Shown here piece by piece: positions 1 through 17,600 of a DNA stretch of 49,317 bases. The notes beneath the pieces were generated by a model. The model was not told the origin of the DNA. It did no database searches and worked only from the letters and a program-made list of their open reading frames with translations. Both the position numbers and the translations under genes were made by a program. Origin of the DNA: Candidatus Phocaeicola faecipullorum (GTDB taxonomy: Bacteria; Bacteroidota; Bacteroidia; Bacteroidales; Bacteroidaceae). How positions within the stretch are numbered: position 1 is the stretch's first letter; each line of letters opens with the position of its first letter. The DNA lies in contig JAHLFB010000075.1 of NCBI GenBank assembly GCA_018884025.1, forward strand, positions 1-49,317. The letters run 5' to 3'.

Positions 1-111
1 TTCTGAAATAATATGTTTATCTTTGACCATAGCTTTTAGTATTGAGTCCTTTTTGATAGCACTTAAAGATACTCATTTTCTGCGAAATACAGAACTAAAA
101 GCTATACTTTT
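1..111. other. possible end of an inserted element next to the broken susD
   Basis: This stretch replaces the expected continuation of the susD gene. A 12-bp inverted repeat, ATAGCTTTTAGT at 29-40 and its complement at 94-105, lies inside it. On the minus strand an ATG at position 30 opens a frame of ten codons (MVKDKHIISE) that runs off the window edge. This would fit the left end and first codons of a transposase gene, but too little is visible to name a family. It could equally be the far side of a deletion junction. Confidence 0.3.
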
Positions 112-465
112 TTACTTGCGAAACTTGAATACATTTATTGTGTAATACCACTCGCGCCATGGCCACCATGTAATATCGGAAGTTACCTCGGCATTAAGAT
201 CATCAAAAGGCAGGTACCATACCTGAGAAGAGTTCCAAGCTTCATCACCACGGCATACATCGATAGTGTAGCCTACACGTGCATAAGAACCTTCCATACG
301 GATATGGTTATAGGCAGCAATAACACTTTCTTCCAAATCATCGGCATTGAAACCGAAAGTGCTTGAAGTCTGTTGATTAGGATTAATCATTTCAAGTCTG
401 TCAATACAAGAAGTAAATGTTCCTAATCCGAAAAGGAGAGCAAGTGAATATATATTTAGTTTCAT
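112..465 (-). pseudogene. SusD-like outer-membrane lipoprotein, truncated after 117 residues
   Basis: SusD proteins cap the SusC transporter at the cell surface and hold glycan for import; they are normally about 500-600 residues. Only the N-terminus is present: a lipoprotein signal peptide with the lipid-attachment Cys at residue 20 (FTSC), then a SusD-type start (NPNQQTSS, DDLEESVIAAYNHIR, WPWREWYYTINV). After INV the sequence departs from the family and stops within five codons, FKFRK. The gene begins 36 bp after the susC stop, the usual susC-susD arrangement. An insertion or deletion has most likely removed or separated the rest. The remaining part might lie beyond the window edge. A functional short SusD is very unlikely. 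Confidence 0.8.
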
Positions 466-501
466 ACGATATATTTTTAGTATTTATATATTGGATGACA
501 A

Positions 502-3500
502 TTAGAATGTAAAATGAACTCCGCACATGAATGTACGCGCTGTTGGATATGAACAGAAGTTATAACCCGGTGTGAATGTACCACCTGCATAATCCACATT
601 ATAGCCATGATAACCGGTAAATGTATGCAAGTTCTGTGCAGATACATATAGACGTACATCTGATACATACTTACCAAACCATTCATTAGGGAAGTTATAA
701 CCTAATTCCACATTTGCAATTTTCCAATAAGCAGCGTTCTGAATCTTGCGCTGACTGAAGAGGTCATTCCATGCAAGGCTGGCATTATTGGTTATATAAG
801 TACGTGGAACGTCTGAGATATAAGTGCTTCCATCTTCACTGAAACGGTTGGCATCAAGAATAGCAACGGCTTTATTACCCCAACCATAGCAAGAGTTCAA
901 AGAGTTGTAGATGTCATCACTTACATGATAGTTCAAAGCGCCGAAAGTAGAGATACTTAAATCAAAACCTTTATATTCAAAACGTGCGCTAAGACCGAAG
1001 TTAACCTTTGGCAGACCACTGCCAAGTACAACTTGGTCATATGCATCCACTTTACCATCAGGAGTACCGTCAGGACCACTTAAATCTTTATAAAGACAGT
1101 CACCAATCTGGGCACCTTCCTGTGTTGCATGGTTATCCAAGTCTTCTTGTGTACGTGCTATACCCTCATACACCCAACCATAGAACTGACCGATTTCTTC
1201 ACCTACGTTTGTTATATAAGCTCCTGAAATATAAGAGTCTGTACCGAAACCTAATGAAGTTACACGGTTTTTCAATGTACTGAGGTTACCGGAGAATTCA
1301 TATTTGAAAGGATTGTCATGATTACGATAAGTAGCAGAGAATTCAAAACCGGAGTTTTCCATAGATGCCGCGTTCATCGTCACTTTTTCATTAGAGACTC
1401 CAGCCTGCTCCGGCACAGGTACCTCATACAGCAGGTCTGTACTTGTATTCTTATACCATTCGGCAGTGAACTCCAGTCTATTGCGGAAAAATGCCAAGTC
1501 CACACCCACATTATACGTTTTCTTCTTCTCCCAAGCTAAATTGTTGTCCACAAAGGTAGAAATTGCCGAACCTGTAACAGGCGAATTATTGAAGCTGTAA
1601 GTCATATTGTTACGCGCCATCACCGCCTGATACATGTACTCACCGATATTCTCGTTACCAAGCTCACCATAGCTACCACGAACCTTGAACATATTTACAA
1701 CATCAGTATTGAAAGGGAAGAAATTTTCCTTATCAAAACGCCAACCTACAGATACTGAAGGGAAAGTTCCCCAACGTATGCTTCTTGTCAGACGAGAGCT
1801 GGCATCTCTACGAACTGTCGCAGAGAACAAATATCTGTCATCATAATTATAGTTTATACGACCGATATAAGATAAAATAGCATGCTTATACTCAAAACTT
1901 TCCGAATATGTATCCGAACCGTTCTGGAGTTGGAGGAAATAAGGTTCAGTGAAATCCAATCCCCATCCTGTCAACAAGTCTGTGTTTTCTTCTTCAAAAG
2001 TCTGACCGGCAATCACATTTATATGATGATTTCCTATTGTACCATCATAAGTAAGCACATTTTCAATCAATGCATCCGAGTATATACGTGAAGCTTTTGT
2101 CAGGCGTTCATTGCTTTTTGCCAAATAAACACGGTTACTCTGTACCCATGAAGGAATCCATGTAAAATCTTTACAGTTGGTCTTACTGTAAGAAAGATTC
2201 AATTTATAATTAAGTTTATGATTCTTGCTGTCAACACCAATCATTTTGAGAAGGTCAACATCTGCCGATGCAGTTCCCACAAATCTGTCAACACGTGTAT
2301 TACGCTGCATCAGATTATTTATAAGCAATGGGTTGGATGCAGAGATATCACCATGTATGTCATCATAATAAACTCCGTAACCGTAAGCATCGTAATTGAA
2401 GTCTTTTGCAATACCAACTTTGTCGTCCAATACCCATGTTGACTCATCGTAAGCCTTTATGGTAGGCTGCATAAGCAAAGTTCCACGAAGAACGTTAGTT
2501 ACATCACCATATAATCCCTGAACATATTCCGAAGCATTTGACAATCCCATGTTATCCTGATCTGAATGGGAATAAACAATACTGGTATGGAATTTCACAA
2601 ACTTAGTGTCCATAGTATTGTTGACACGTGCTGTAAAACGTTCATAATTAGGACCTGCACCTTCAAGAGTTCCTTTCTGGTTAAAGTAGTCCAATGCTAC
2701 ATTATAAGTATTGTGTGCGCCACCACCGGAAAGATTTACATTATGATTCTGGCGGATACCTGTCTTGAATACTTCTTTAAACCAATCTGTATTGGTGTCA
2801 TCCTGGAAACGGTATTTACCTGTAGCACTGTCAAGATGATATCCTCCCGGAATAGGAGTATCAGAATTAATACATGCCTGACCGACATATTGACTGTACT
2901 GGTCTGCATCCATTACATCATATACATTGTTAGGAATATAATCGACACCAAAATATCCGTTATAATCTACTTTCAGAGGTTGGTCTTTCTGTCCACGTTT
3001 TGTAGTAATGATAACCACACCATTAGCAGCACGGGAACCGTAAATAGCAGCAGCAGAGGCATCCTTCAACACCTGAATTGTTTCTATATCATTAGAAGAG
3101 AAATCACGTATGGAAGTTCCCATCGGAACACCGTCAATTACATAAAGAGGAGCAGTACTTCCGAAAGAACCGATACCACGGATACGAACTGAAGGATCGG
3201 CACCAGGCTGACCGTCAGATGTAATTTGTACACCTGCTACCTTTCCTTCAAGCATAGAAGATATATTTGAATGTGAAACCTGTTTCAAAGCTTCTGCATC
3301 TACTACAGATACAGCTCCTGTCAAATCTGATTTTTTCTGTGTACCGTAACCTACAACTACTACCTGGTCAAGCATCAAATCGTCTGTCTGCAGTTGAATC
3401 GGTTCCAGGACTGCTCTATTGCGAACAGCTATTTCACGGTCCTTATATCCGACATAACTTATCAATAAAACAGAGTTACCAGGAACCTCAATCTGGAAAT

Positions 3501-3711
3501 TTCCATCAAAGTCGGTTGTTGTTCCCGTTTGTCCATCTTTAACTCTGATAGTAGCACCAAGCAAAGGAAGACCTTGCTCATCAATAACCTGACCACTTAC
3601 CTTAATTGAAGGAGATTGTGCCACGGCAGCCAAAGCAGATGAAGGATATACCATTGTTCCTCCAAAGGCACATAAACCAAGCATTGCAGAAAAAATAAAT
3701 TGTTTTTTCAT
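502..3711 (-). CDS. SusC-family TonB-dependent transporter (arabinose-polymer locus)
   Basis: Outer-membrane barrel that imports oligosaccharides using TonB energy, paired with a SusD lid. The ATG at 3711 gives a signal peptide (MKKQFIFSAMLGLCAF); upstream in-frame codons offer only a TTG. After it come a carboxypeptidase-regulatory-like domain at about residues 35-115 (VSGQVIDEQGLPLLGATIRV), the SusC signature VVVVGYGTQKKSDLTG, a plug domain (VRIRGIGSFGS, PLYVIDGVPMG, VLKDASAAAIYGSRAANGVV) and a long beta-barrel ending in aromatic FTF. Length, 1069 residues, is normal. Its susD partner downstream is truncated, so the pair may not work. The substrate is inferred from the adjoining sensor and the GH43/GH51 enzymes: arabinan or arabino-oligosaccharides. 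Confidence 0.93.
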   Translation of the reverse strand: MKKQFIFSAMLGLCAFGGTMVYPSSALAAVAQSPSIKVSGQVIDEQGLPLLGATIRVKDGQTGTTTDFDGNFQIEVPGNSVLLISYVGYKDREIAVRNRAVLEPIQLQTDDLMLDQVVVVGYGTQKKSDLTGAVSVVDAEALKQVSHSNISSMLEGKVAGVQITSDGQPGADPSVRIRGIGSFGSTAPLYVIDGVPMGTSIRDFSSNDIETIQVLKDASAAAIYGSRAANGVVIITTKRGQKDQPLKVDYNGYFGVDYIPNNVYDVMDADQYSQYVGQACINSDTPIPGGYHLDSATGKYRFQDDTNTDWFKEVFKTGIRQNHNVNLSGGGAHNTYNVALDYFNQKGTLEGAGPNYERFTARVNNTMDTKFVKFHTSIVYSHSDQDNMGLSNASEYVQGLYGDVTNVLRGTLLMQPTIKAYDESTWVLDDKVGIAKDFNYDAYGYGVYYDDIHGDISASNPLLINNLMQRNTRVDRFVGTASADVDLLKMIGVDSKNHKLNYKLNLSYSKTNCKDFTWIPSWVQSNRVYLAKSNERLTKASRIYSDALIENVLTYDGTIGNHHINVIAGQTFEEENTDLLTGWGLDFTEPYFLQLQNGSDTYSESFEYKHAILSYIGRINYNYDDRYLFSATVRRDASSRLTRSIRWGTFPSVSVGWRFDKENFFPFNTDVVNMFKVRGSYGELGNENIGEYMYQAVMARNNMTYSFNNSPVTGSAISTFVDNNLAWEKKKTYNVGVDLAFFRNRLEFTAEWYKNTSTDLLYEVPVPEQAGVSNEKVTMNAASMENSGFEFSATYRNHDNPFKYEFSGNLSTLKNRVTSLGFGTDSYISGAYITNVGEEIGQFYGWVYEGIARTQEDLDNHATQEGAQIGDCLYKDLSGPDGTPDGKVDAYDQVVLGSGLPKVNFGLSARFEYKGFDLSISTFGALNYHVSDDIYNSLNSCYGWGNKAVAILDANRFSEDGSTYISDVPRTYITNNASLAWNDLFSQRKIQNAAYWKIANVELGYNFPNEWFGKYVSDVRLYVSAQNLHTFTGYHGYNVDYAGGTFTPGYNFCSYPTARTFMCGVHFTF

Positions 3712-3948
3712 TTTAAATGGTATTAAATTTAAATTTTTCAATAAACCAATTAGATTGTTCTAACATAACAAAGATGAGTTTTATTCATTTCTACCCAGAT
3801 AAGATTAATACAATAACCTATAAGGAAAAATCTTTACGTTACGGTATAATATCGTATTCTGCAAGTCCCTTGCAAAATACCAATGACTGTTTTTGTAGCA
3901 TTCTCCATAATACATTCTTTTAAAATATAACAAATTATTTTTATGCCA

Positions 3949-3956
3949 CAAAAATA
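3949..3956 (-). promoter_or_regulatory. -7 promoter box for susC
   Basis: Read on the minus strand, TATTTTTG matches the Bacteroides -7 consensus TAnnTTTG. There is no TTTG -33 box at 19-21 bp; a repeated operator sits there instead. This is typical of an activator-dependent promoter. The leader to the susC ATG is long, about 240 bp. Confidence 0.55.
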
Positions 3957-3975
3957 TAGGAGATAGCCAAAATGA

Positions 3976-4008
3976 AAGTGGACAAAAAAAGATAATAAGT
4001 GGACAAAA
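3976..4008 (-). promoter_or_regulatory. HTCS operator, two direct repeats 21 bp apart (susC side)
   Basis: On the minus strand TTTTGTCCACTT occurs at 4008-3997 and again at 3987-3976, exactly 21 bp (two helical turns) apart. The inner copy ends 19 bp before the -7 box. The same core TCCAC(C/T)T, with the same 21-bp spacing, is found in front of the GH43 operon on the other side of the HTCS gene. One further copy in opposite orientation, GTCCACCT, is at 4034-4041. The rest of the 411-bp gap from 3712 to 4122 holds only a short palindrome (CCTGATTATCAGG, 4090-4102) just after the HTCS stop. Confidence 0.65.
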
Positions 4009-4122
4009 GCATACAAAACATGTTTTTACTTAAGTCCACCTATTAATATCTGATTTATACACTTTATAACTTACAAATCATTATTTACACCTGATTATCA
4101 GGCTATATCAGTACACTTATTG

Positions 4123-7100
4123 TCATTTATCCTCCATTATGCTGCTCGGCGTTACATTGAAATGCTTCGTAAAGCAGCGTGTAAAGTATTTAGGATCGTT
4201 GAACCCGACCTGATATGCAATCTCTGATATGTTCATATTATGTGTCACCTTGTTTTTCAACAAAAGTTCGCGTGCAAGATTCAGTCTGTAGTTTCTCATA
4301 AACTGATTTGTAGACTGTCCCGTCAGACTCTGCATCTTCTTGTTCAGAAGACTCTTGCTCATGCCCATGGCATTGATGAAATCGGCGACATCAAAATCAG
4401 GGTTCATGTAATTTTCTTTTACCACTTTCATTGCCTTGTCAAGAAACTTCTTGTCGCCCGACTCTTCATCTATTTCCAAAGAATCTACATCCATTGTAAG
4501 ATAGAACTTCTGCTGGAAACGCTTTCTGTTTTCCAATATACCTGAAATTCGTGCCAACAATAAATTCTCATCGAAAGGTTTCAACAGATAGGAGTCTACA
4601 CCAGCTTTATAACCTTCCAGTCTTGCTTCGTCCGAAGTCTTTGCCGTAAGCATAAGAATAGGTATATGTGATATAGAGAAATCACTCCTTATCCTATGCG
4701 ACAGTTCCATTCCATCCATCACAGGCATCATAAGGTCGCTGATTACGAAGTCTACATTCGAAGAACTCAGGACATGCAGCGCCTCCTCACCATTCGATGC
4801 TTCCAGTACATTATAATATTCTGCCAGAATGGACCTTATATAATCTCTCATATCCTTATTGTCCTCTACGATAAGAATATTCAGTTTGCCGTTCTTTTCA
4901 GGCGACAAGGATACTTCGTCATGTTCGTCATCATACACTTCATCTACTATCTCATTCTTATCTCCTCTTTCTACAGGCAATAATATTCTGAAGGACGAGC
5001 CTTGCACCGGATTGTTCATAGCAACTAGACTGCCTTCCAGCAGTGTTATAAGTTTCTTGCAGAGATACAGCCCTATGCCCGTTCCACTTTGTCCGCTTAC
5101 CGACTCCAGGCCCTGATTATCTGCCTGATAAAAGCGGTTGAAGATTTTCTCAATATCGCCTTCGGGTATTCCTTTTCCGGTATCTCTTACACATATGTAC
5201 AGTTTCTCTCCACCGTTGTCGTTCACTGTTGCAGCGTAAACAGATACCATGCCTCCTTTCTCTGTAAACTTTATGGCATTGCTTATAAGATTTGTTATTA
5301 CCTTACGCATTATATCTTCATCGAACATCATATATGGATTGTCGATGCGCTTATAAGACTTCAACGTAATGCCATGATCGCCTGCAAACGCGACAAAAGG
5401 GGTAAGCAAGTCATCGAGGAACGTATTTATATTTCCATGATGGCATATAATCTTCATCCTTCCATCCTCCACTTTTCTGAAGTCCAACAGCTGATTTATC
5501 AGCGAGAGGAGATATTTGCTGTTTTTCTCAACCAGATTGAGCTGCTCGATAACCTGCGGATTATAACTCAGCTTCAAGGCCCTTTCGATAGGACCTACTA
5601 TAAGCGTAAGTGGGGTTCTGAACTCATGTGTGATGTTTGTGAAGAAAGTCAGTTTGTCAATAGTCAGTTCCTCTACCTTGCGGGACATTTCAAGTATCTT
5701 GTTTTTCTGTTCCGTTATCTGAATATTCTGTTCTTTCAACAGTCCGTTCTGTTTTGACAGTTCCTCCGTCTGTACAGAAAGCAGTTTCTGCTGTTCTTTG
5801 AGTTCACGGGTACGTTCTTCTACCTTGTCATGCAGTATAATCTGCTGTCGTTTCATCTCGTTAAACCTCCAAATTACTATTCTGTAGCCAATAATAGCCA
5901 ACAGTAGCATAACCGACAAGACAAACCACGGGGTCTTGTAGAAATATGGCGAAACTTCTATCTGAAGTCCATTACCCGCACTTATCCAGTTCTTACCATC
6001 GGGGGTATATCTCAACTGGAAGCTGTATTTTCCCGGTTTCAGATTAGTATAAGTCACCGTGCGTCTGTCTCTTCTCGTATCTATCCAGTTATCATCGAAA
6101 CCCACAAGGCGATAAGAATATGCCGCCAACGAAGAAGGATTATAATCGAGGGCTGCAAACTCTATAGTCAATGACTTGTCACTTTCATGAAGTTCCAATA
6201 GTCCATCTTCAGGATGGCATGCCCCACCTATTACGTTTATTCTGGTGATAGTCAACGGGAAATTCATACGGCTTTCCTTTTCCATCACCGGATGTACTTC
6301 GGAAAGGCCTCCCAAGCTTCCCAAATAGATTTTCTCACCATTGCCGGACACAGCAGTGGCATTCCAGTAGAAATTATCTGATGGCAATCCGTCTTTAGAC
6401 GTATAACCTACAAACATATCATCCTTGGGATAATACCTTGAAAGTCCATTTACCGTAGTAATCCAGATATTGCCATACCAGTCTTCCTGTATGCCACGCA
6501 CATTATTACTTATCAACCCATCCTGAACATTGTATGATGAGAACACGTAATTCTCGCCTTCTTTTACGGCACAATATATCCCTGCACCGTTGCTGCCAAT
6601 CCACAAATCACCGTTTCCGGCCTCATGAACACTTGTGATTCGTTCACCCTTAGGCATATTCACTCCGTCGGTATATTTCTTATAGACCAACTCACCGCGT
6701 GAATAAGCCTTGAGGTCCACTCTCAACAATCCGTAAACGGAAGACAGCCATAAATCCCCTGCTCCGGAAATACAGCCTCCCAAAGCATTTATATTTACTA
6801 TCTCTTTCTCAGCATCCTTGAAAGGCTCTTTTACAGTATTATCCTTCGGATTATAGACGTATGCACTATGCTGTGAACCAATCCAAAGTAAATCATTTAT
6901 TCTGTCATAAATTAATGTAGATATAAAAATGTCATCTATACCTTCTATTCTGTTGAAGAGTTTGCCAGTTCCCGTTTTCCGGTTTATCCATCCTACGCCT
7001 CCTCCCCATGTACCTACATAAAGTCTTTCCTTTCCATCGAGAGCCAAAGAACTGACAGTGTTATGACTGAGATAAGAAGGCGCATCTGTCGTGAAATGGA

Positions 7101-8343
7101 TAAAACCGTTCATTCCCTTGGGTTTACAGTTGAGTCCTCCCTCTACTACACCTACCCATAACGTGCCGTCATTGTCTTCAATGATTGAGTTTACAAGATT
7201 TCTCGACAGACTGGATGCCTGGTTCTGCAAATGCAGATAATTTGTAACATATAAGCGTGAAGCATACATTTTTGCAAGCCCACCTGTTTCTGTACCTATC
7301 CACACAATATCATTTCCATCGTCATAAAAAAGTACATTGACAAAGTTTGAGTTTAGCTGAGAACCACCTCCCAATCCGCCTTCATCGTCATTTATAACAT
7401 GCTGGAAGTTGTCATAGACAGGGTTGTAGATATTAAGCCCCATCAAAGTTCCGACAATCAGTGTTCCATCCCCTGCCGATGTGATATCTGTTATATAGTT
7501 CTGTGATAAAGAATGTCCGTCCTCCCTATTGTGCATATAATATCGCACAGTATCTGTCAATATGCTGTATCTGAGCAGACCGAAACTTGTTCCTATCCAT
7601 ACGTCATTATTAAGAACGTGCATGCAAAATACTGACTGACCATACAAAGAGGCTAAAGATGATGAAGCAGCATTAGGCTCCTGCCACTCCATAACCGTAT
7701 CAGCTACGCGACAGAGCATATTGTCTTTCTGAAACCATATATATCCATTAATCTCACATAGTGCGGTACCACGCTCGTTCGTATTGGCATGCGATACTTT
7801 TATTACGTCACTCACGCCACCCTTATCATCAAGCACCACCTTATAAAGAATGTTCTTGCTACTCAACCATATATTGCCCGACTTGGAAACAAGCATCCCG
7901 GATATAGGAGAATCCATAAATGGCATTAAGGAAGAGGCCACTTCCGATGTCCTTAAGTCGAGGTCGTTTATAGATATAAGGTCTATTCCGTCATCGCCGG
8001 ACACCCATAAACGTCCAAACCTATCTTCACATAAATGGCTTATAAAGTTAGATTTCAGTTTGTTCGTTCCTGTATTGGTACTGAAATTCACAAACTCATA
8101 TCCATCGTATCGGGAAACACCTCCTCCCATAGTGGAAAGCCACAGATATCCACGACTGTCCTTTACCACATCATCAACAAAGACATGTGGCAAACCGTCC
8201 TGCATTGTGATACAGGAAAAAGTATATCTGTTTGTGTAGTTCACAATTTCCTGCCTGTCTGCATTCCTTGCGGATGACTGCAGTATTCCCACAATACAAT
8301 ATAATATAAACAATGAATAAGATAGAATGTGCTTTAAATTCAT
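4123..8343 (-). CDS. hybrid two-component system sensor/regulator (HTCS), arabinose-polymer locus
   Basis: One protein of 1406 residues that senses a periplasmic oligosaccharide and activates transcription. Order seen: N-terminal signal/anchor; two-bladed-propeller periplasmic sensor built of Reg_prop repeats (for example GYLWLSTMGGGVSRYDGYEF, LWVGVVEGGLNCK); Y_Y_Y domain near residues 730-795; membrane helix at about 804-826; coiled coil; histidine kinase with phospho-acceptor His906 in THEFRTPLTL; ATPase domain with DTGKGIPEG and GTGIGLYLCKKL; receiver domain with Asp1203 in SDLMMPVMDG; C-terminal AraC-type DNA-binding domain (ISEIAYQVGFNDPKYFTRCF). All key residues are present. It sits between susC and the GH43/GH51 operon, and both promoters carry the same repeated operator, so it very probably controls both. 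Confidence 0.95.
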   Translation of the reverse strand: MNLKHILSYSLFILYCIVGILQSSARNADRQEIVNYTNRYTFSCITMQDGLPHVFVDDVVKDSRGYLWLSTMGGGVSRYDGYEFVNFSTNTGTNKLKSNFISHLCEDRFGRLWVSGDDGIDLISINDLDLRTSEVASSLMPFMDSPISGMLVSKSGNIWLSSKNILYKVVLDDKGGVSDVIKVSHANTNERGTALCEINGYIWFQKDNMLCRVADTVMEWQEPNAASSSLASLYGQSVFCMHVLNNDVWIGTSFGLLRYSILTDTVRYYMHNREDGHSLSQNYITDITSAGDGTLIVGTLMGLNIYNPVYDNFQHVINDDEGGLGGGSQLNSNFVNVLFYDDGNDIVWIGTETGGLAKMYASRLYVTNYLHLQNQASSLSRNLVNSIIEDNDGTLWVGVVEGGLNCKPKGMNGFIHFTTDAPSYLSHNTVSSLALDGKERLYVGTWGGGVGWINRKTGTGKLFNRIEGIDDIFISTLIYDRINDLLWIGSQHSAYVYNPKDNTVKEPFKDAEKEIVNINALGGCISGAGDLWLSSVYGLLRVDLKAYSRGELVYKKYTDGVNMPKGERITSVHEAGNGDLWIGSNGAGIYCAVKEGENYVFSSYNVQDGLISNNVRGIQEDWYGNIWITTVNGLSRYYPKDDMFVGYTSKDGLPSDNFYWNATAVSGNGEKIYLGSLGGLSEVHPVMEKESRMNFPLTITRINVIGGACHPEDGLLELHESDKSLTIEFAALDYNPSSLAAYSYRLVGFDDNWIDTRRDRRTVTYTNLKPGKYSFQLRYTPDGKNWISAGNGLQIEVSPYFYKTPWFVLSVMLLLAIIGYRIVIWRFNEMKRQQIILHDKVEERTRELKEQQKLLSVQTEELSKQNGLLKEQNIQITEQKNKILEMSRKVEELTIDKLTFFTNITHEFRTPLTLIVGPIERALKLSYNPQVIEQLNLVEKNSKYLLSLINQLLDFRKVEDGRMKIICHHGNINTFLDDLLTPFVAFAGDHGITLKSYKRIDNPYMMFDEDIMRKVITNLISNAIKFTEKGGMVSVYAATVNDNGGEKLYICVRDTGKGIPEGDIEKIFNRFYQADNQGLESVSGQSGTGIGLYLCKKLITLLEGSLVAMNNPVQGSSFRILLPVERGDKNEIVDEVYDDEHDEVSLSPEKNGKLNILIVEDNKDMRDYIRSILAEYYNVLEASNGEEALHVLSSSNVDFVISDLMMPVMDGMELSHRIRSDFSISHIPILMLTAKTSDEARLEGYKAGVDSYLLKPFDENLLLARISGILENRKRFQQKFYLTMDVDSLEIDEESGDKKFLDKAMKVVKENYMNPDFDVADFINAMGMSKSLLNKKMQSLTGQSTNQFMRNYRLNLARELLLKNKVTHNMNISEIAYQVGFNDPKYFTRCFTKHFNVTPSSIMEDK

Positions 8344-8365
8344 AAATCCAGGTTTTAATTATCCA

Positions 8366-8373
8366 CAAAAATA
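8366..8373 (-). promoter_or_regulatory. -7 promoter box for the HTCS gene
   Basis: TATTTTTG on the minus strand, a match to TAnnTTTG, 22 bp before the HTCS ATG. The following bases GTGG are the same as after the susC -7 box. No clear -33 TTTG is seen. Confidence 0.45.
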
Positions 8374-8429
8374 AAACCTATTTCCTAATTTCATACTACT
8401 ACAGGCAGAGTTTTTCCGGCATTTGCAGG

Positions 8430-8461
8430 TTTATCCACCTAACATGTTTATTTGTCCACCT
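8430..8461 (+). promoter_or_regulatory. HTCS operator, two direct repeats 21 bp apart (GH43 side)
   Basis: TTTATCCACCT at 8430-8440 and TTTGTCCACCT at 8451-8461 are spaced by exactly 21 bp. The second copy ends 20 bp before the -7 box at 8482. The motif, spacing and distance to the promoter match the operator in front of susC on the other side of the HTCS gene. Confidence 0.65.
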
Positions 8462-8481
8462 GCCTAACAAGAACAGGGAGG

Positions 8482-8489
8482 TATATTTG
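8482..8489 (+). promoter_or_regulatory. -7 promoter box of the GH43-GH51-GH51 operon
   Basis: TATATTTG fits TAnnTTTG exactly and lies 22 bp before the chosen GH43 ATG. There is no TTTG at normal -33 distance; the HTCS operator occupies this position. Confidence 0.6.
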
Positions 8490-8511
8490 CAAAAAATTAA
8501 TTTCTAACAGT

Positions 8512-9492
8512 ATGAAAAATAAGATTAGATTATTGATTGTTACATTTCTTGCAAGCTTCGTATGCCACACATTGTATGCAGCGAAAAAAGACACTACTTT
8601 CGTAGCCAAAGGCAATCCTGTAATTACACACAAATACTTAGGCGACCCGGCTGCTTTGGTACACAACGGTACGGTATATATCTATGCCGGACACGACGAA
8701 TGTCCTGAACCACATCAATATTATCTGATGAATGAATGGTGTATTTTCTCTACCAAGGACATGAAAACATTCACCGAACATTCATACACCCTTAAAGCAA
8801 AAGATTTCAAATGGGCTAAGGGTGACGCATGGGCTAGTCAGGTAATAGAAAGAAACGGTAAATTCTACTGGTATATAACAGTGGAGCATGCTACTATACC
8901 GGGAAAATCAATCGGTGTGGCAGTTGCAGATTCTCCAAAAGGTCCTTTCAAGGATGCAAGAGGCAGTGCGTTAATCACCAATGATATGACTACAGAATAT
9001 ACTTCGATAGGCTGGGACGACATTGACCCTACCGTAATAATAGACGATGACGGACAGGCATATCTGTTCTGGGGTAACACTCAGTGCTATTATGCAAAAC
9101 TGAAAGAAAACATGACAGAGCTTGACGGCCCTATCATCCCGATAAATCTTCCACGCTTCACTGAAGCTCCATGGATACACAAACATGGCGACTGGTATTA
9201 TCTGTCGTTCGCATCGGAATTTCCGGAGAAGATTTGCTATGCCATGAGCAAAAGCATCAACGGACCATGGGAGTATAAAGGAATACTGAACGAACTGGCC
9301 GGAAACTCAAACACTAACCACCAGTCAATAATAGACTTCAACGGTAAATCGTATTTCATTTACCATAACGGCGGAATAAATACCAATGGAGGCAGTTTCC
9401 GACGCTCTATCTGCATTGACCGTTTATACTATAATGAAGACGGAACGATAAAAAGAATACAGATGACGAGCGAAGGTATCACAAATAAATAA
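8512..9492 (+). CDS. GH43 glycosidase (alpha-L-arabinofuranosidase/arabinanase type)
   Basis: Five-bladed beta-propeller glycosidase of 326 residues; GH43 enzymes invert the anomeric centre and mostly cut arabinose or xylose linkages. The ATG at 8512 gives a signal peptide (MKNKIRLLIVTFLASF...YAA) and follows the -7 box correctly. Catalytic triad is visible: base Asp45 in GDPAALV, pKa-modulating Asp172 in DIDPT, and general acid Glu218 in FTEAPW. Typical GH43 strings DDDGQAYLFWGN and YNEDGTIK support the call. It is the first gene of an operon with two GH51 enzymes and lies behind an HTCS operator, so an arabinan or arabinoxylan side-chain role is likely. Whether it is exo- or endo-acting, or a xylosidase, cannot be decided here. 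Probably periplasmic. Confidence 0.9.
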   Translation: MKNKIRLLIVTFLASFVCHTLYAAKKDTTFVAKGNPVITHKYLGDPAALVHNGTVYIYAGHDECPEPHQYYLMNEWCIFSTKDMKTFTEHSYTLKAKDFKWAKGDAWASQVIERNGKFYWYITVEHATIPGKSIGVAVADSPKGPFKDARGSALITNDMTTEYTSIGWDDIDPTVIIDDDGQAYLFWGNTQCYYAKLKENMTELDGPIIPINLPRFTEAPWIHKHGDWYYLSFASEFPEKICYAMSKSINGPWEYKGILNELAGNSNTNHQSIIDFNGKSYFIYHNGGINTNGGSFRRSICIDRLYYNEDGTIKRIQMTSEGITNK

Positions 9493-9518
9493 TTATTTTA
9501 AAAATCAACATAAAAAGC

Positions 9519-9526
9519 TATTTTTG
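9519..9526 (+). promoter_or_regulatory. possible internal -7 box before the first GH51 gene
   Basis: TATTTTTG in the 62-bp gap between GH43 and GH51 fits TAnnTTTG and lies 28 bp before the ATG at 9555. No -33 box or HTCS operator is seen nearby, so this may be a weak constitutive start or chance in AT-rich DNA. Confidence 0.35.
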
Positions 9527-9554
9527 TATCACAAATAAAATTAATACTTTTCCC

Positions 9555-11534
9555 ATGAAAAAACACTTCACATTATTAAGTGCCTTAGCCCTCACAACAT
9601 GTATGGGCATCAGCGCACAAGAGGTAAACAATATGGTTGTTCAGACCAACAAAATCGGTGCTGAAATACAGCCTACTATGTACGGACATTTCTTCGAGGA
9701 CATCAACTATGGTGCCGACGGAGGACTATATGCAGAACTTATAAAGAACCGTTCGTTCGAGTTTCCACAGAACTTTATGGGATGGAATATCTTCGGCAAT
9801 GTAACTTTGCTGGATGACGGCCCGTTCGACAAAAACCCTCACTACGTACGACTGGGAGATCCGGGACATGCGCACAAGCGTACAGGTATCGAGAACGAAG
9901 GTTTCTTCGGAATAGGTATCAAAGCCGGCGAAAGCTACCGTTTCAGCGTATGGGCAAGGGGTGAAAACCAGAAAATCACTATGGAACTCATCGACAATGC
10001 TTCTATGGGAGAAACACAGGTTATAACTTCGCAGACATTGGATATCAACTCCAAGGACTGGAAGAAATATGAGATAAAGCTTACTCCGGAACAGACATTC
10101 GCAAAGGCTCACTTGCGTATCTTCCTTGCATCTGCAGGAACTGTTGACCTGGAGCATGTCTCATTATTCCCTACCGACACATGGAAAGGCCGCGAAAACG
10201 GATTGCGCAAAGACCTTGTACAGGCTCTTGCTGATACAAAACCGGGAGTGTTCCGTTTCCCAGGAGGATGTATAGTGGAAGGAACAGACCTTGCTTCGCG
10301 CTATAACTGGAAAAACTCTGTAGGCCCGGTTGAAAACCGTCCTCTGAACGAAAACCGCTGGCACTACACTTTCCCTCACCGCTTCTTCCCTGACTATTTC
10401 CAGACATACGGAATGGGATTCTACGAACTCTTCCTGTTGGCAGAAGATATGGGTGCAGAACCATTGCCTGTACTTAGCTGCGGTCTTGCATGCCAGTTCC
10501 AGAATGAAAACGAAGAAGCACACGTGAAGGTTTGCGACCTTCAGCCTTACATACAGGATGCTCTCGACCTTATCGAGTTTGCAAACGGAGCTACAGACAC
10601 CAAATGGGGAGGCCTTCGTGCCGAGATGGGACATCCGGAACCGTTCAACTTGAAATTCATCGGAATAGGTAACGAACAGTGGGGTCCTGAATATCCGGAA
10701 CGTCTGAAACCATTCGTAGAAGCTATCCGCAAGGCATACCCGGATATGAAGATTATAGGTTCGTCAGGTCCTAACTCTGAAGGTAAGGACTTTGAGTATC
10801 TGTGGCCAGAAATGAAGAAACTGAAAGTTGATTTGGTGGACGAACATTTCTACCGTCCTGAAGACTGGTTCCTAAACTCTGGCAGCAGATATGACAACTA
10901 CGACCGCAAAGGTCCGAAAGTATTTGCAGGCGAATATGCATGCCACGGCAAGGGCAAGAAATGGAATCATTTCCATGCGTCACTTCTTGAGGCTGCTTTC
11001 CTTACAGGCGTAGAACGCAATGCCGACATCGTTCATATGGCTACATACGCTCCGCTGCTTGCACATGTTGAAGGATGGCAGTGGCGTCCTGACCTGATAT
11101 GGTTCGACAATCTACGCTCTGTACGCACATGCAGCTGGTATGTTCAGAACCTGTACGGACACAACAAGGGAACAAACGTAATCCCTCTCACTATGGACAA
11201 GAAGGCTGTAAGCGGCCAGGAGGGACAGAACGGACTTTTTGCAAGTGCGGTATTGGACAAGGAGAACAATACTTACATTCTGAAAGTTGTCAATACTTCG
11301 GACAAGAGCCAGAAGCTGAACATCGAATTCAAAGGCCTGAAGAAATCAGTATCACTCGTCAACGGCAAGTGCATCACTCTTCATTCTGACAATTCCGACG
11401 CAGAAAACACTCTTGACGAACCAAACAAGATTGTTCCTGTGGAAAAGGATATCAACATCGAAAAGAACATCCTGAACACCGAAATCGGAGAAATGACATT
11501 CGCAATCTATAAATTTGAAATATCTAAAAAGTAA
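9555..11534 (+). CDS. GH51 alpha-L-arabinofuranosidase with N-terminal carbohydrate-binding-like insert
   Basis: Retaining arabinofuranosidase of 659 residues that removes arabinose from arabinan or arabinoxylan. A signal peptide (MKKHFTLLSALALTTCMGISAQ) points to the periplasm or beyond. A beta-sandwich resembling the CBM4/9 fold follows the first GH51 strand, about residues 65-205 (SFEFPQNFMGWNIF...HVSLFPTDTW). The catalytic (beta/alpha)8 barrel carries the acid/base Glu374 in GIGNEQWG and nucleophile Glu460 in FAGEYA; a C-terminal beta domain completes the enzyme. It differs strongly in length and architecture from the next GH51, so the two are not a recent duplication; they probably attack different arabinose linkages. 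Only 3 bp separate it from the second GH51 gene. Confidence 0.93.
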   Translation: MKKHFTLLSALALTTCMGISAQEVNNMVVQTNKIGAEIQPTMYGHFFEDINYGADGGLYAELIKNRSFEFPQNFMGWNIFGNVTLLDDGPFDKNPHYVRLGDPGHAHKRTGIENEGFFGIGIKAGESYRFSVWARGENQKITMELIDNASMGETQVITSQTLDINSKDWKKYEIKLTPEQTFAKAHLRIFLASAGTVDLEHVSLFPTDTWKGRENGLRKDLVQALADTKPGVFRFPGGCIVEGTDLASRYNWKNSVGPVENRPLNENRWHYTFPHRFFPDYFQTYGMGFYELFLLAEDMGAEPLPVLSCGLACQFQNENEEAHVKVCDLQPYIQDALDLIEFANGATDTKWGGLRAEMGHPEPFNLKFIGIGNEQWGPEYPERLKPFVEAIRKAYPDMKIIGSSGPNSEGKDFEYLWPEMKKLKVDLVDEHFYRPEDWFLNSGSRYDNYDRKGPKVFAGEYACHGKGKKWNHFHASLLEAAFLTGVERNADIVHMATYAPLLAHVEGWQWRPDLIWFDNLRSVRTCSWYVQNLYGHNKGTNVIPLTMDKKAVSGQEGQNGLFASAVLDKENNTYILKVVNTSDKSQKLNIEFKGLKKSVSLVNGKCITLHSDNSDAENTLDEPNKIVPVEKDINIEKNILNTEIGEMTFAIYKFEISKK

Positions 11535-11537
11535 CTT

Positions 11538-13073
11538 ATGAAGAACATCGTTTTATCTATTGCCATGATGGCAAGCGTATCGGCTTTCGCACAGCAGAAG
11601 GCTACGATAGAAATATATCCTGAAAAAGGTAACCAGATTATACCGAAAGAAATATACGGACAGTTTGCCGAACATCTTGGTACATGTATATACGGCGGAC
11701 TTTGGGTAGGCGAAGACTCGAAGATTCCTAACATAAAAGGTTATAGAACAGACGTTTTCGAGGCACTGAAGAAACTGAAAGTGCCTGTACTGAGATGGCC
11801 GGGAGGATGTTTTGCCGATGAATACCACTGGATGGACGGTATCGGTCCTAAGGAAAACCGCCCTCGTATGGTGAACAATAACTGGGGTGGTACGGTAGAA
11901 GACAACAGCTTCGGTACTCATGAGTTCCTCAACCTCTGCGAAATGCTCGAATGCGAGCCTTATATCAGCGGAAACGTTGGTAGCGGTTCGGTAGAAGAAA
12001 TGGCAAAATGGGTGGAATACATGACATCGGAACAGGGAAGTCCTATGGCAAAGCTTCGTAAGGAAAACGGACGCGAAAAGCCATGGAAAGTAAAATACTT
12101 CGGAGTAGGTAACGAAAGTTGGGGATGCGGTGGAAACATGCGTCCGGAATATTATGCCGACCTGTATCGCCGTTATTCTACTTATTGCAGAAACTATAAC
12201 GGAAACGTCCTTTTCAAAATTGCAAGCGGTGCGAGCGACTATGATTACAACTGGACTGAGGTGCTTATGCAGAACGTAGGCCACAGAATGGACGGAGTGT
12301 CACTCCACTATTATACAGTGACAGGATGGAGCGGCAGCAAAGGCTCGGCTACCAAGTTCACAAACGAGGATTATTACTGGACAATGGGCAAGTGTCTTGA
12401 AATAGAAGATGTACTGAAACGCCACATCGCCATCATGGACAAGTATGACCCTAAGAAACAGATTGCCCTGATGGTGGACGAATGGGGTACATGGTGGGAT
12501 GAAGAACCGGGAACTATCCCAGGACACCTTTACCAGCAGAACACACTGCGCGACGCTTTCGTGGCTTCACTCACTCTCGATGTGTTCCACAAATATACAG
12601 ACCGCGTAAAGATGACAAACATCGCACAGATAGCAAACGTTCTTCAGTCAATGATTCTGACAAAAGACGATAAAATGGTACTGACTCCTACATACCACGT
12701 GTTCGAAATGTACAACGTACATCAGGATGCTACATACCTGCCATTGAACCTCGAATGTAACTACAAGGTGGTAAGGGACAACAGAGAAGTGCCTATGGTG
12801 AGCGCTACAGCATCACGCAAGGACGGACTGACACACATCTCGCTGTCAAATGTCGATTTGAACGAGGAACAGGAAATCACAATCAAGCTTGACGGAATGA
12901 ACATCAAGAGTGTTTCAGGAAGAATCCTTACTTCTGACAAGATTGACGATTACAACTCTTTCGAAAATCCTGACGTAGTATGCCCGAAAGAATTCAAAGG
13001 CGCAAAAATCAGCAAGAACACACTAATCGTGAAACTGCCGGCTAAATCAATAGTAACACTGGAGCTTAAATAA
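11538..13073 (+). CDS. GH51 alpha-L-arabinofuranosidase (AbfA type)
   Basis: Compact GH51 enzyme of 511 residues, the usual size for this subgroup. Signal peptide [19 protein letters not shown], so it is exported. Barrel motifs include [14 protein letters not shown], acid/base Glu193 in [11 protein letters not shown] and nucleophile Glu315 in MVDEWGTWW; the C-terminus forms the usual jelly-roll. It begins 3 bp after the preceding GH51 stop and is followed by a terminator at 13110, so it closes the GH43-GH51-GH51 operon. Expected product is free L-arabinose from short arabino-oligosaccharides. No arabinose catabolic genes are present in the window. Confidence 0.94.
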
Positions 13074-13109
13074 AGCGAAAGTACAATTAAGTAAACAGAT
13101 AAATTGCAA

Positions 13110-13150
13110 AGAGCCATATTCCGATAACGGGATGTAGCTCTTAACTTTTT
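13110..13150 (+). terminator. terminator of the GH43-GH51-GH51 operon
   Basis: AGAGCCATATTCCG pairs with CGGGATGTAGCTCT across a four-base ATAA loop, with one mismatch and two wobble pairs, followed by a T-rich tail ending in TTTTT. It lies 36 bp after the last GH51 stop. Confidence 0.75.
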
Positions 13151-13176
13151 GTTATGTTTCCGGACATCTGCAACAA

Positions 13177-13185
13177 GATTTCCCG
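13177..13185. repeat. target-site duplication, left copy
   Basis: GATTTCCCG directly abuts the left end of the insertion sequence; an identical copy abuts the right end at 14481. Nine bases agrees with the 8-10 bp duplications of the ISAs1 family. Confidence 0.9.
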
Positions 13186-13207
13186 CAGGGCTGACGCATT
13201 ACTTAAT
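13186..13207. repeat. left terminal inverted repeat of the IS
   Basis: 22 bp that match the right end (14459-14480) as an exact reverse complement. The match stops at both the inner and outer boundary. The outer end CAGGGCTG is of the type seen in ISAs1-family elements. Confidence 0.95.
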
Positions 13208-13273
13208 AAACTGATAATCAACCTGAGTTTGATAAGTTCAATGATATAATCTACCTATAATTACTTTTTTCTT

Positions 13274-13281
13274 TACTTTTG
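13274..13281 (+). promoter_or_regulatory. -7 box for the transposase
   Basis: TACTTTTG fits TAnnTTTG, 28 bp before the transposase ATG at 13310. No clear -33 element. Confidence 0.5.
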
Positions 13282-13309
13282 TCCTATATTTTCAAGTTAA
13301 AAACATCCA

Positions 13310-14467
13310 ATGGAAATCATCTCAATACTCCGTACAGTAAAGGATCCTCGTCGTGAACATTTAAGAGAACACAGTTTCGAGTGTATATTTTATATCGCAA
13401 TGGCCGCAGTCATAGGCGGTGCAGAAAGCTGGTATGAAGTTGCCGATTTCGGTAAGATGCATGAATCTTTCTTCCGCTCACGCATAAAGGACTTTAAATG
13501 TGTTCCTTCTCATGACACTTTCAATCGTGTCTTTTCCCTTCTTTCTCCCGATGAACTCGAAAAGGGTTTCCGTACCTGGATACGTGAAATTTGCGGTAAA
13601 TACCGTGGCCTTGTATCCATAGACGGTAAAGAGATATGCGGTGCCCGTGAAGAGAAGAGCGACGGCAGTTTTGAGTCTCTCCGCATAGTAAGTGCCTGGG
13701 CATCAAGTAATGGTGTTTGTCTTGGTCAGGAAAAGGTAAGTGAAAAGAGTAACGAAATAAAGGCAATACCATTGTTGATAAAGGCTCTTGACCTTGAAGG
13801 CTGTATAATTACCATTGATGCCATTGGCTGCCAGCATGAAATAGTCGATACAATCATAGATGCAAAAGCGGAATATCTTATAAGTTTAAAGAAGAACCAG
13901 AAGAACCTTTATGAAACTGTAGAGGGCTGGTTCTCTGATATTGACATCTATGGAAACAATATTGACGGAAGAGGCCATATACCGAAGACAAGATACAGGT
14001 ACAGCATAACGGAGGAATGTTCACATGGGCGCTTCGAGAGGCGTGTGTGTCAGGTATATAACAATGGCCTATTGTCTAAACTCCTGGAATGGAAGGGGGT
14101 AAACTCAGTGGTTTGCCTGACCAATACGAAGAAATATATCAAGTCAGGAAAGACTACGGTAGAGAAACACTATTACATAACATCACTTCCTTTGGATTCT
14201 GACCGTATAATTTCAACAATCAGAAGTCATTGGAGTATAGAGAATAATCTTCACTGGCAGCTTGATGTGTCATTCAATGAAGACAGCCAGAAGAAAAAGA
14301 AAAATGCAGCACAGAACTTTTCTCTACTCAATAAGATAGCCATGACGCAACTAAAAAACAACAAGAGGAAATCAAGCCTTAAGGGTAAAAGAAAAATGGC
14401 GGGATGGAGCGATGAGTTTCTTGCTGAACTTTTAGATGCGCCATGGCAAAATGAAGAAATTAAGTAA
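13310..14467 (+). CDS. ISAs1-family DDE transposase
   Basis: Cut-and-paste transposase of 385 residues, a normal length for ISAs1 (H-repeat-type) elements. An N-terminal DDE-associated domain (ILRTVKDPRREHLREHSFECI) is followed by the catalytic core: Asp105 in VSIDGKEI, Asp170 in ITIDAIGCQ and Glu311 in RSHWSIENNLHW. The reading frame is intact, and its last codons and stop lie inside the right terminal repeat. The ATG at 13310 follows a -7 box and leaves about 100 bp of left end before the gene. Confidence 0.96.
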   Translation: MEIISILRTVKDPRREHLREHSFECIFYIAMAAVIGGAESWYEVADFGKMHESFFRSRIKDFKCVPSHDTFNRVFSLLSPDELEKGFRTWIREICGKYRGLVSIDGKEICGAREEKSDGSFESLRIVSAWASSNGVCLGQEKVSEKSNEIKAIPLLIKALDLEGCIITIDAIGCQHEIVDTIIDAKAEYLISLKKNQKNLYETVEGWFSDIDIYGNNIDGRGHIPKTRYRYSITEECSHGRFERRVCQVYNNGLLSKLLEWKGVNSVVCLTNTKKYIKSGKTTVEKHYYITSLPLDSDRIISTIRSHWSIENNLHWQLDVSFNEDSQKKKKNAAQNFSLLNKIAMTQLKNNKRKSSLKGKRKMAGWSDEFLAELLDAPWQNEEIK

Positions 14468-14480
14468 TGCGTCAGCCCTG
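14459..14480. repeat. right terminal inverted repeat of the IS
   Basis: Exact reverse complement of 13186-13207. It overlaps the 3' end of the transposase gene, including its stop codon. Confidence 0.95.
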
Positions 14481-14489
14481 GATTTCCCG
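14481..14489. repeat. target-site duplication, right copy
   Basis: GATTTCCCG, identical to 13177-13185, directly after the right terminal repeat of the IS. Confidence 0.9.
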
Positions 14490-14498
14490 ACAGAGAAA

Positions 14499-14586
14499 GC
14501 GTTACACGTACGTGTAACGGGTGGAACACGAACGTGAAACGAGCGTAACACCTACGTGTGACGCGCGTTACACGAACGTGTTACGC
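14499..14586. repeat. array of four tandem 22-bp palindromes
   Basis: Four back-to-back imperfect palindromes with an exact 22-bp period, centred at 14509.5, 14531.5, 14553.5 and 14575.5. The first contains the perfect 20-base palindrome CGTTACACGTACGTGTAACG. The shared core is ACAC(G/C)NACGTG. Units differ by several bases, yet most changes keep the palindrome. The array is GC-rich compared with its surroundings and lies 26 bp after the stop of the second HTCS gene, between convergent transcription units. It may form stacked RNA hairpins ending transcription from both sides, or bind a dimeric protein. I do not recognise a named family. Confidence 0.85.
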
Positions 14587-14612
14587 CAAATATATACGGG
14601 AATTTCCGGATA

Positions 14613-17600
14613 TTACTTCTGTTGCTTTATATATTCGGTAGGAAGACAACCGATATACTTCTTAAAACTTGTAGCAAAATAAGACGGGGTGCTGAACCCG
14701 ACCATGGAGCTTATCTCAGCAATGTTGTAACGTCCCTCCTTTAGCAGACGGCATGCCTCGGAAAATCTGATTTTCTTTATAAACTCTATTGCCGATTCTC
14801 CTGTTATGGCTTTCAGCTTGAGATGCAGATTTGAACGGCTCATGTTCATCTGACTTGCAAAATCCTCGGTAGAGAAGTCTGTATTGTCAAGATTCTTTTT
14901 GACTATCTCCACAGCTTTCTTAAGGAGTTCCTCATCTACAGGATTGAATGTCACTTTCTCCGGCTCTACTGTAAGCTCTTTGGAATAATGCTCCAGCATA
15001 CGGCGGCGCGTACGCATCATGTTCTGTATCTTCGAAATCACTAAAGAAAGCGAGAACGGTTTCGGAATATAGTCGTCGGCACCTGTTCCCAAAGCCTCTT
15101 TCTGGTCGCTTAGGTCTGTTTTTGCCGAAAGCATTATCACTGGGATATGGCTTGTAGATACGTTCTGCTTGATGTTTTTGCATAACTTCACTCCGTCCAT
15201 GACAGGCATCATCACGTCTGTTATCACTATATCGACTGTGTTCTTCTTAAGCAGTTCCAATGCCACTTCGCCATTCTCCGCCTGAAGCACAGTGAATACT
15301 TTTGACAAACCGGATTTCAAATAATGTCTAACCTCGTCATTATCCTCTACCACCAGTATTGTACCTCTTTCCAGACTGTCATCATCTTCATCAACGCCTT
15401 TTACATCATCATCTGAATCGATGAAAAACATTTCTTTGGTATTGGTGAAATGTGCCGGTGTCTCTGTACCAGGCAAACTTCCGGCAATCTCGTCCTCTTT
15501 ATACACTGAAATATTCTGAGGCAGGTAAACGTAGAACGTACTGCCCTTGCCCGGTTCGCTCTCCAGTTCTATAGTTCCATGATGCAGTTCTACCAGACGC
15601 TGCACCAGCGACAGGCCTATACCGCTTCCTATATGCTCGGAATCCAACTGGAAAAAGCGCTCGAATATCTTCTTGTGCTTGTTCGGCGCTATGCCTACTC
15701 CGGTATCGGATACGCTCAATACCAGAAAACCGTCTTTCAACGACAGATTAACGGTAATACTTCCTTCCTTGGTATATTTGAACGAGTTGGACAAAAGATT
15801 ATTCAATATAATCTCAATGTATTTTGCATCGGCAAGGACTTCTGTACCGTCCAGGTCGGATACAAGATTATAAGACAGCGATTTGTGCTTAGCAAGTTTC
15901 TCGTAGAAAGAGAAACATTCCTTTACTACGGAATATATGTTGCTTTTTTCCACTCTTAGCTTGAACACACCAAGCTCGGCACGTCTGTAATCCATCAGCT
16001 GATTAACCATATGCAGCAGACGCGTAGTATTTCTCTCTACAAAACCCAGCTGTTCTTTCATCCATTTATCCGTAGTACGCAACTTCATTTCCTGCACAGG
16101 GGCCATGATAAGAGTTAGCGGAGTACGCAGTTCATGCGATATGTTTATGAAGAAACGCATCTTCATCTGATTTATTTCTTCCTGATGTATTTTTTCCTTA
16201 TGCTCCATCTCAAGCTGCGCCTGCATCTGTTTTTTAATCCAGAAATGCCTCAGAACAAGAGATATGACAATCACAACCAGAACAAATATAAGAGTGCGTG
16301 CCCACCAGGTTTCATACCACACAGGCAGTATTCTGATGTAAAGTGTTTCAGGATTGTTGTTCCATTTTCCATCATTATTGGCCGAACGTACCTTGAAACA
16401 ATACTCCCCGTGAGGAAGATTTATATAGGAAACAGAACGGTTGGACTGCACCTGAGTCCAGTTTTCATCATACCCCTCAAGCTTGTATGAAAATGTATTA
16501 TGCTGTCCTGCCAGATAATTTGAAACAACGAATTTAAGAGTAAATGAGCGATGAGAATTATCAAGAGTGATACTGTCCGTATCGGAAATATGTTTCTTCA
16601 ATATTCCTGTATCATCGCCCGGGCGTACCTCTCTGTCGTACAGCATCAGCTTTGTTATCACCGGACTCGGAGAATAAGGATTGTCAATAAGAAGTTCCGG
16701 ACGGAATGTTGTTATTCCGTTTATACCTCCGAAATAAAGCTGTCCGTCGGACGTACGGCAATGTGAATACGAATTAAACTGGTTACTCTGTATGCCATCG
16801 TCTATCGTAAAGTTTCTGAACTTATCGTTCAGCGGACTGTAACAGCTGAGTCCCATATTCGTACTTACCCATATATTGCTGAAAGAATCTTCTTCTATAC
16901 CATAAACCACATTGTTCGGCAATCCATCAGCATCCGAAAGATGAATAAGTTCCCCATTCTTGGTGTCTATACAATAAAGCCCCATCCTTGTACCTATCCA
17001 TATACGTCCGTCTCCGGCCTGGTATATACATTGGGCAGTCTTTATATTACCGATACCTTTTATCCCGAACGATGTTTTTTTGAGTTTACCGTCTTCCACC
17101 GAATATTTCAGCATCTCGTCGTCAAGAGCTATCCAAAGACAGTCGGAAGTATCCTTATACATTGCATATATTGCCTTCCCGAACACGGAAGCATCTGTTT
17201 CGGGAGTAAAAGAACCGTCAGCGGTATTATAAACAAATAAACCGTTAAGAGTGCCAAGCCACAAAGTCTTGCTGTCGCGCGGCAATATTACATATATACT
17301 GTTGGAAGGCGAGTTTATCTCGCTTATATATCTGTGTCTTATGCTACCCGTCCTGCGGTCGATTTCCTTCATTCCGCCTGCATGAGTACCCACATATACC
17401 TTGTCTGAAGCCTCGTCAATATATACGGATTTCACATTATTTGACTCACGTGATATACCATCATCACCTGAATCGAACAAATAAAACCTGAAAGTGCCAT
17501 CCGCAGGGTTATAACAGTTTAGTCCTCCATCATTTGTACCTATCCACAGCCTCGATTTCTCATCCTCAACTATACAGCTCACCACATTGTCGCTCAATGA

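Follow-up and report, generated by a model that had tools for sequence, protein, structure and literature searches.

The window analysed here, 49,317 nucleotides of Candidatus Phocaeicola faecipullorum (assembly GCA_018884025.1, contig JAHLFB010000075.1), encodes a hybrid two-component system (HTCS) regulator with a direct-repeat module on either side of its gene, one before susC and the other before a divergent GH43 gene. We predict with high confidence, from sequence comparison, that the two modules serve as activator operators for the regulator encoded between them, an arabinan HTCS of the Bacteroides thetaiotaomicron BT0366 type. It also appears probable that, in Prevotellaceae and some other Bacteroidales, HTCSs of this type have lost kinase and receiver, in one or two deletions, to become one-component activators of ~1,000 amino acids (aa) that kept the same 21-bp operator.

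Direct repeats on both sides of the HTCS gene

Both modules are exact 21-bp direct repeats, each directed away from the HTCS gene, and the fuller half-site of both is TTTRTCCACYT. The predicted elements are as follows.

3976..4008, minus strand: predicted susC-side operator, direct repeat TTTTGTCCACTT / TTTTTGTCCACTT with a 21-bp period; cores TCCACTT at 4003-3997 and 3982-3976
3956-3949, minus strand: susC promoter box of the -7 type, TATTTTTG, 19 nt after the inner core
8430..8461, plus strand: predicted GH43-side operator, TTTATCCACCT-10-TTTGTCCACCT, with a 21-bp period; cores TCCACCT at 8434-8440 and 8455-8461
8482-8489, plus strand: promoter box of the GH43 operon, -7 type, TATATTTG, 20 nt after the inner core

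The repeats, their period and their distance from the promoter are thus observed directly. They agree to the letter with the original prediction, which had described a TCCAC(C/T)T core in direct repeat with an exact 21-bp period on both sides of the HTCS gene, in the same orientation relative to the genes and with the inner copy 19-20 bp before a TAnnTTTG box. An unpaired TCCACCT is also present on the plus strand at 4035-4041, between the HTCS gene and susC, with no partner at 21 bp.

The mode of action that we infer, from ligand and binding to activation, polymerase contact and operon extents, would be the following. A periplasmic arabino-oligosaccharide (the ligand being assigned by homology to BT0366) would trigger the HTCS kinase, and the HTCS receiver would then be phosphorylated. 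Two AraC domains would occupy the adjacent TTTRTCCACYT half-sites, spaced by two turns of the helix and bound to the same face of the DNA. The inner copy ends where a -33 element would lie, so that the regulator, once bound, would bring RNA polymerase to the TAnnTTTG promoter from this position. Of the two modules, one would drive susC and the genes following it, the other the GH43-GH51-GH51 operon.

Single TCCACYT 7-mers are at background in the window (15 found, against a shuffle mean of 12.13), as are pairs with up to three mismatches (15 against 12.29), and these counts, being at the level of chance, were excluded from the evidence. There are two perfect TCCACYT pairs in the window, and when the two intergenic stretches (381 and 168 bp) were reshuffled 20,000 times under a first-order Markov model, no such pair arose in either. 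A motif-blind scan of the 49,317 bp on both strands, which took TAnnTTTG boxes outside open reading frames (ORFs) of at least 150 aa and looked 19-20 nt before them for a direct repeat of 21-bp period in which at least 10 of 14 bases agree, returned only the two modules. In the organism's own genome the 7-mer pair occurs three times and its reversed-pattern control also three times, which shows that on the scale of the genome the bare pair is no rarity; requiring TTTRTCCAC in both copies leaves exactly the two window sites, and none in the control. The third own-genome pair (L003) is inside a 542-codon open frame and was rejected as an operator.

Conservation of the repeat and co-occurrence with the regulator

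Among 61 genomes of the genus, 22 (window included) have an orthologue of the HTCS at E up to 1e-250. On the GH side, within 450 bp upstream of the HTCS gene, a pair with at most one mismatch is found at 21 of the 22 loci and an exact one at 18; on the susC side, within 600 bp downstream, the numbers are 14 and 10, with the flank of one locus (L145) ending at 144 bp, and some of the absences on this side are due to a more distant susC or a contig end. The original prediction had named the absence of the repeats from orthologous loci that keep the genes as evidence against it; the repeats are kept, as the 21 GH-side pairs show. The long pattern TTTRTCCAC-N12-TTTRTCCAC occurs 16 times in 12 of the 61 genomes, and its reversed control in none. 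All 12 genomes belong to the 22 with the orthologue, and none of the 39 genomes without it carries the pattern (Fisher p = 3.7e-7, a value that is too small because the genomes are related).

Three individual loci deserve mention. In G030 a copy of the long pattern (L141 4457) lies ~32 kb from the HTCS orthologue, before a susC 84% identical to the window's, and this remote operator is a possible member of the regulon away from the HTCS. In L034 and L036 (G015, G018) a 332-aa gene separates HTCS and susC; the pair before this gene is imperfect, the one before susC exact. The HTCS relative of L018 (G032:C88:118565-122652) is split, its sensor part and its kinase-receiver-AraC part matching two frames of 1,002 and 429 aa.

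The best 80 of 567 relatives, combined with 24 fetched loci and the window itself, gave a wider sample of 105. We left out L047-L053, L056 and L065 (judged by length and score to be on the same contigs as fetched loci), L063 (its protein identical to that of L140), four loci truncated by the end of a contig (L066, L075, L081 and L099) and L091 (1,129 aa and situated at a contig end), and retained 48 loci with a full-length HTCS, the window among them, and 42 with a short regulator, from several families. At the full-length loci an exact TCCAC pair at period 21 stands beside the gene in 41 of 48 cases, and in 44 when one mismatch is allowed. Across the 23 other periods (12-35) the mean is 0.17 loci and the maximum 2 with exact pairs, and the mean is 2.7 and the maximum 7 with one mismatch. 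When the letters of TCCAC are permuted at period 21 on the GH side, the exact word leads with 37 of 49 loci (one duplicate included) against 10 for CACCT, whose matches are mostly the same sites read in a shifted register. On the GH side 29 of 36 exact sites, and on the susC side 22 of 25, stand 19-20 nt before TAnnTTTG, and exact pairs are kept down to 41% HTCS identity (L086).

The first gene after the pair varies by lineage (susC, GH43, GH51 or a 769-aa gene without an assigned function), which argues that the repeat travels with the regulator and not with one target. What is found is a direct repeat of ~21 bp upstream of genes of a polysaccharide utilization locus (PUL), conserved in orthologues, as defines an HTCS operator. 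Conservation, the period of 21 and co-occurrence with the orthologue, all three direct observations, thus strongly support the original proposal that the modules are the probable binding site of this HTCS.

Alternatively, the repeats might be promoter elements common to PULs in general, or have arisen by chance in AT-rich DNA. This view could draw on the background level of the single 7-mer and on the equal counts of own-genome pairs and reversed pairs. It is largely contradicted by the sharpness of the period, the specificity of the word and the co-occurrence within the genus. In addition, near other HTCS hits an exact pair was seen in only 2 of 16 control loci (L031, L033), both times within coding frames. 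We regard this explanation as extremely improbable.

The second full HTCS of the window (14613-18653) might also own the repeats, since it lies in the same window and belongs to the same family. However, the operators are present at the nearest orthologous loci (L034-L036), where genes other than the window's follow the GH51 genes, and the motif-blind geometric scan of the window found no 21-bp repeat around the second HTCS. Ownership by this protein seems hardly credible.

Several observations weigh against the assignment of the modules to the HTCS between them. Four of the 48 full-length loci have no pair in the tested flanks even at one mismatch; these are L037/G007, with neither a GH43 nor a GH51 gene found in its vicinity, and L072, L088 and L115, which are rather diverged. 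Many of the sampled loci are close relatives and hence not independent, and the susC-side pair is present within 600 bp in only 14 of the 22 genus loci (10 exact). BT0366 itself was not found among the genomes searched, so that two B. thetaiotaomicron-like loci (L139 and L140) serve as its stand-ins, and the comparison with the published HTCS_Ara-1 regulon covers architecture and gene neighbours.

The arabinan locus, BT0366 and AraR

The genes around the modules are listed below.

502..3711, minus strand: susC-like TonB-dependent transporter, which the susC-side operator is predicted to control; an earlier alternative start (TTG, 3741) is in the ORF list
4123..8343, minus strand: HTCS of 1406 aa, BT0366-type arabinan sensor/regulator (by Pfam and sequence identity)
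8512..9492, plus strand: GH43 glycosidase, opening the divergent operon; start at ATG 8512, with a TTG inside the operator (8452) as an alternative in the ORF list
9555..11534, plus strand: GH51-type alpha-L-arabinofuranosidase (Pfam)
11538..13073, plus strand: GH51-type alpha-L-arabinofuranosidase, second copy (Pfam)
13310-14467: DDE transposase gene (Pfam), between the second GH51 gene and the second HTCS
14613-18653: second full HTCS of the window (Pfam)

The regulator at 4123..8343 combines a periplasmic sensor, kinase, receiver and AraC helix-turn-helix (HTH) in one protein, as defines an HTCS; its seven Pfam families (Reg_prop, Y_Y_Y, HisKA, HATPase_c, Response_reg and HTH_18/HTH_AraC) all score above the respective cut-offs. 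It is flanked by susC on one side and by the divergent GH43-GH51-GH51 set on the other. Regulator and gene content identify the window locus as a BT0366-type arabinan PUL, the type known from B. thetaiotaomicron: compared with the stand-in loci L139/L140, it has the related HTCS together with GH43, GH51 and transport-gene neighbours. Where the window has the DDE transposase, the nearest orthologous loci have other genes, oxidoreductase-like by eye. A 117-aa frame at 112-465 resembles the start of the gene that follows susC in relatives, and ends at 112, near the contig end.

In the PUL of BT0366 (BT0348-BT0369) the HTCS stands, as in the window, between outer-membrane transport genes and a divergent glycosidase set; in the window GH43 comes first in the divergent set and two GH51 genes follow. 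At L139/L140 the HTCS is 48%, the GH51 protein 72% and the GH43 protein 71-73% identical to the window's (the last over the 226-256 aa inside the loci, the gene being cut by the locus end), and a TCCACC-N15-TCCACC pair lies on each side of the HTCS gene. The window susC is of another type (best match at L139/L140 37% over 355 aa).

According to published accounts, BT0366 shifts fragments of the BT0365 promoter and of BT0367-BT0366 in electrophoretic mobility shift assays (PMC5061871), positions equivalent to the two window modules; a BT0366 chimera binds near its own PUL in chromatin immunoprecipitation sequencing (PMC3404733); and the ligand is arabinohexaose and longer oligosaccharides, shorter ones not being bound (PMC3243724). 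Direct repeats of two conserved sites at an average distance of 21 bp were predicted in 2013 for 16 HTCSs of B. thetaiotaomicron, with HTCS_Ara-1 among the regulons named (Ravcheev 2013, PMC3878776). The window operators have this same two-site architecture, and so fit one already predicted for HTCSs, and binding by BT0366 to the equivalent fragments had already been reported. To the 2013 study the present analysis adds 48 full-length loci from several families, a steady promoter gap of 19-20 nt, and kinase-less regulators.

Another arabinose regulator, such as AraR, might own the repeats and merely neighbour the HTCS. As described in a published report (PMC4666351), AraR of Bacteroides belongs to the NrtR family, recognizes an inverted-repeat site and controls arabinose and arabinan promoters, dual control being in print. 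The AraR oligonucleotide of the BT0365 promoter from that report was the probe with which L139/L140 were found (no exact match in 399 genomes of the family, and matches with 2 mismatches in 2 of 119 genomes of the genus of G086). In these B. thetaiotaomicron-like loci the AraR site adjoins the HTCS pair: at L139 it occupies 8729-8759 (29 of 31 bases of the BT0365 oligonucleotide), directly upstream of an operator core that begins at 8767, a tight dual-control layout. However, AraR is of a different protein family, and its site, which we read from the printed oligonucleotides as GTGT-N7-ACAC, is an inverted repeat unlike the TCCAC direct repeats of the HTCS. No exact GTGT-N7-ACAC is present in window positions 1-20000 (the exact form alone having been sought), and no genome of the genus that lacks the HTCS orthologue carries the long operator pattern. 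AraR was therefore rejected as owner of the repeats, on the form of its site and its absence in exact form from this part of the window, and we consider its ownership very unlikely.

Relatives without kinase and receiver

The 42 short regulators retained in the wider sample (958-1,052 aa) are mostly from Prevotellaceae. Eight of them were run through Pfam; all eight have Reg_prop, Y_Y_Y and the AraC HTH, and none of the eight has HisKA, HATPase_c or Response_reg at E up to 0.01. By eye, their junctions fall into two classes. Class A (n = 33; by genome title, 32 from Prevotella, Segatella or Prevotellaceae and one from Bacteroidales) seems, on sequence, to retain a remnant of the last helix of the receiver: 31 of 33 linkers match a profile made from this helix in full HTCSs, with up to 20.8 bits and always just before the DNA-binding domain. 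Of these linkers 29 score above the best shuffled one (2.7 bits), with 31 of 210 shuffles giving some match and 9 of the 31 class A matches below 8 bits. The nine class B members, mostly from genomes titled Bacteroidales or Bacteroidia, give no match to the profile and keep a coil like the one that precedes the kinase. The short form is not universal in Prevotella, where L085 has a full HTCS.

In a quick tree of 63 rows (30 of the 48 full HTCSs, 22 of 33 class A, all nine class B and two outgroup sequences), each class forms one clade, and both are nested within the full HTCSs. Columns less than 70% filled were dropped, only 32 rows can hold kinase and receiver, and the outgroup branches are long. 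The placement of the two classes as sisters has a support of 93 and is not starred, so that either one loss or two are possible. Two short regulators come from genomes titled as strains (L092, Segatella copri strain Indica; L095, Prevotella sp. P5-92) rather than as metagenome-assembled genomes, which makes an assembly fault unlikely. A tblastn search with the window's kinase-receiver stretch, aimed at a kinase and receiver encoded separately near the short regulators, gave matches in 2 of the 42 short-form loci (L104, L094), the searched flanks ending at 10 kb or at contig ends.

The operator is present beside the short regulators too. At class A loci an exact pair lies downstream of the regulator gene in 27 of 33 cases (28 with one mismatch) and upstream in none; other periods give at most one exact pair, all 27 exact sites have the 19-20 nt gap to TAnnTTTG, and 29 of the 33 loci have a susC 68-78% identical to the window's. 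Class B has no exact TCCAC pair in the standard flanks; with at most one mismatch a pair is found downstream at 7 of 9 loci and upstream at one. The exact count depends on the called start, as the upstream sites of L096, L111 and L113 are exact TCCAC pairs overlapping the called ORF. With a relaxed core, T(C/A)CAC, chosen after the class B sites had been seen, a pair at period 21 is found at 7 of 9 loci on either side (upstream with the first 45 nt of the called ORF included), against none at any other period from 16 to 27.

The DNA-binding domain of both forms shares its second HTH, in which N1382, D1383, K1385, Y1386, F1387, R1389, C1390 and F1391 are invariant in all 90 full and short relatives. 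In 14 paralogues (17 were intended, and three without a domain by the pattern used were left out) N, D, K, R and C of this HTH are present in only 6, 5, 6, 5 and 8, respectively, while all 14 keep F1387. At position 1336, in the first recognition helix, a K (K1336) is present in 47 of the 48 full HTCSs, in 7 of the 33 class A proteins and in 5 of the 9 of class B. By our own equation of the positions, this K may be the receiver-contacting one described in PMC11253607.

In L092 the short regulator is followed by susC, susD, a gene without a Pfam match and GH43. In S. copri DSM18205 the genes NQ544_10425-10440, which arabinan induces, encode GH43, SGBP-B, SusD and SusC homologues (PMC11784079).

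With a sensor, a membrane helix and an AraC domain, the short forms would pass the signal mechanically through the membrane helix and bind the tandem operator without need for receiver phosphorylation; signalling may involve no phosphorylation, or a kinase acting in trans. Membrane-bound one-component activators are known in ToxR and CadC, and the kinase-less relatives would share their plan of periplasmic sensor, membrane helix and cytoplasmic DNA-binding domain. They differ from ToxR and CadC in the families of sensor and DNA-binding domain, and apparently derive from HTCSs by loss of kinase and receiver.

As a check of generality, we took five further regulators (933-1,040 aa) from the genomes of L092 and L095. 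Three are Reg_prop-Y_Y_Y-AraC proteins with other DNA-binding domains and no kinase or receiver in Pfam.

L152 1206-4121, minus strand: kinase-less regulator
L153 4658-7483, minus strand: kinase-less regulator
L156 3911-7033, minus strand: kinase-less regulator

L154 is an ordinary HTCS, and the frame taken for L155 contains no HTH. Beside L152, L153 and L156 the geometric scan returned no 21-bp repeat. Judged by domain content, kinase loss is recurrent among HTCS relatives, beyond the BT0366-type family.

In the literature covered, which was partial and left subscription papers mostly outside, we recognized no account of a kinase-less BT0366-type regulator or of its operator. Nor did we find in that literature the retention of the operator across the loss of the phosphorelay.

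The findings amount to a footprint, at the level of single bases, of one HTCS operator whose half-site, period and distance from the promoter hold steady over many species. The kinase-less relatives would in addition constitute a natural experiment, in which a related sensor and the same DNA-binding helix meet the same operator with or without a phosphorelay, and this comparison would make the contribution of the HTCS kinase and receiver testable.

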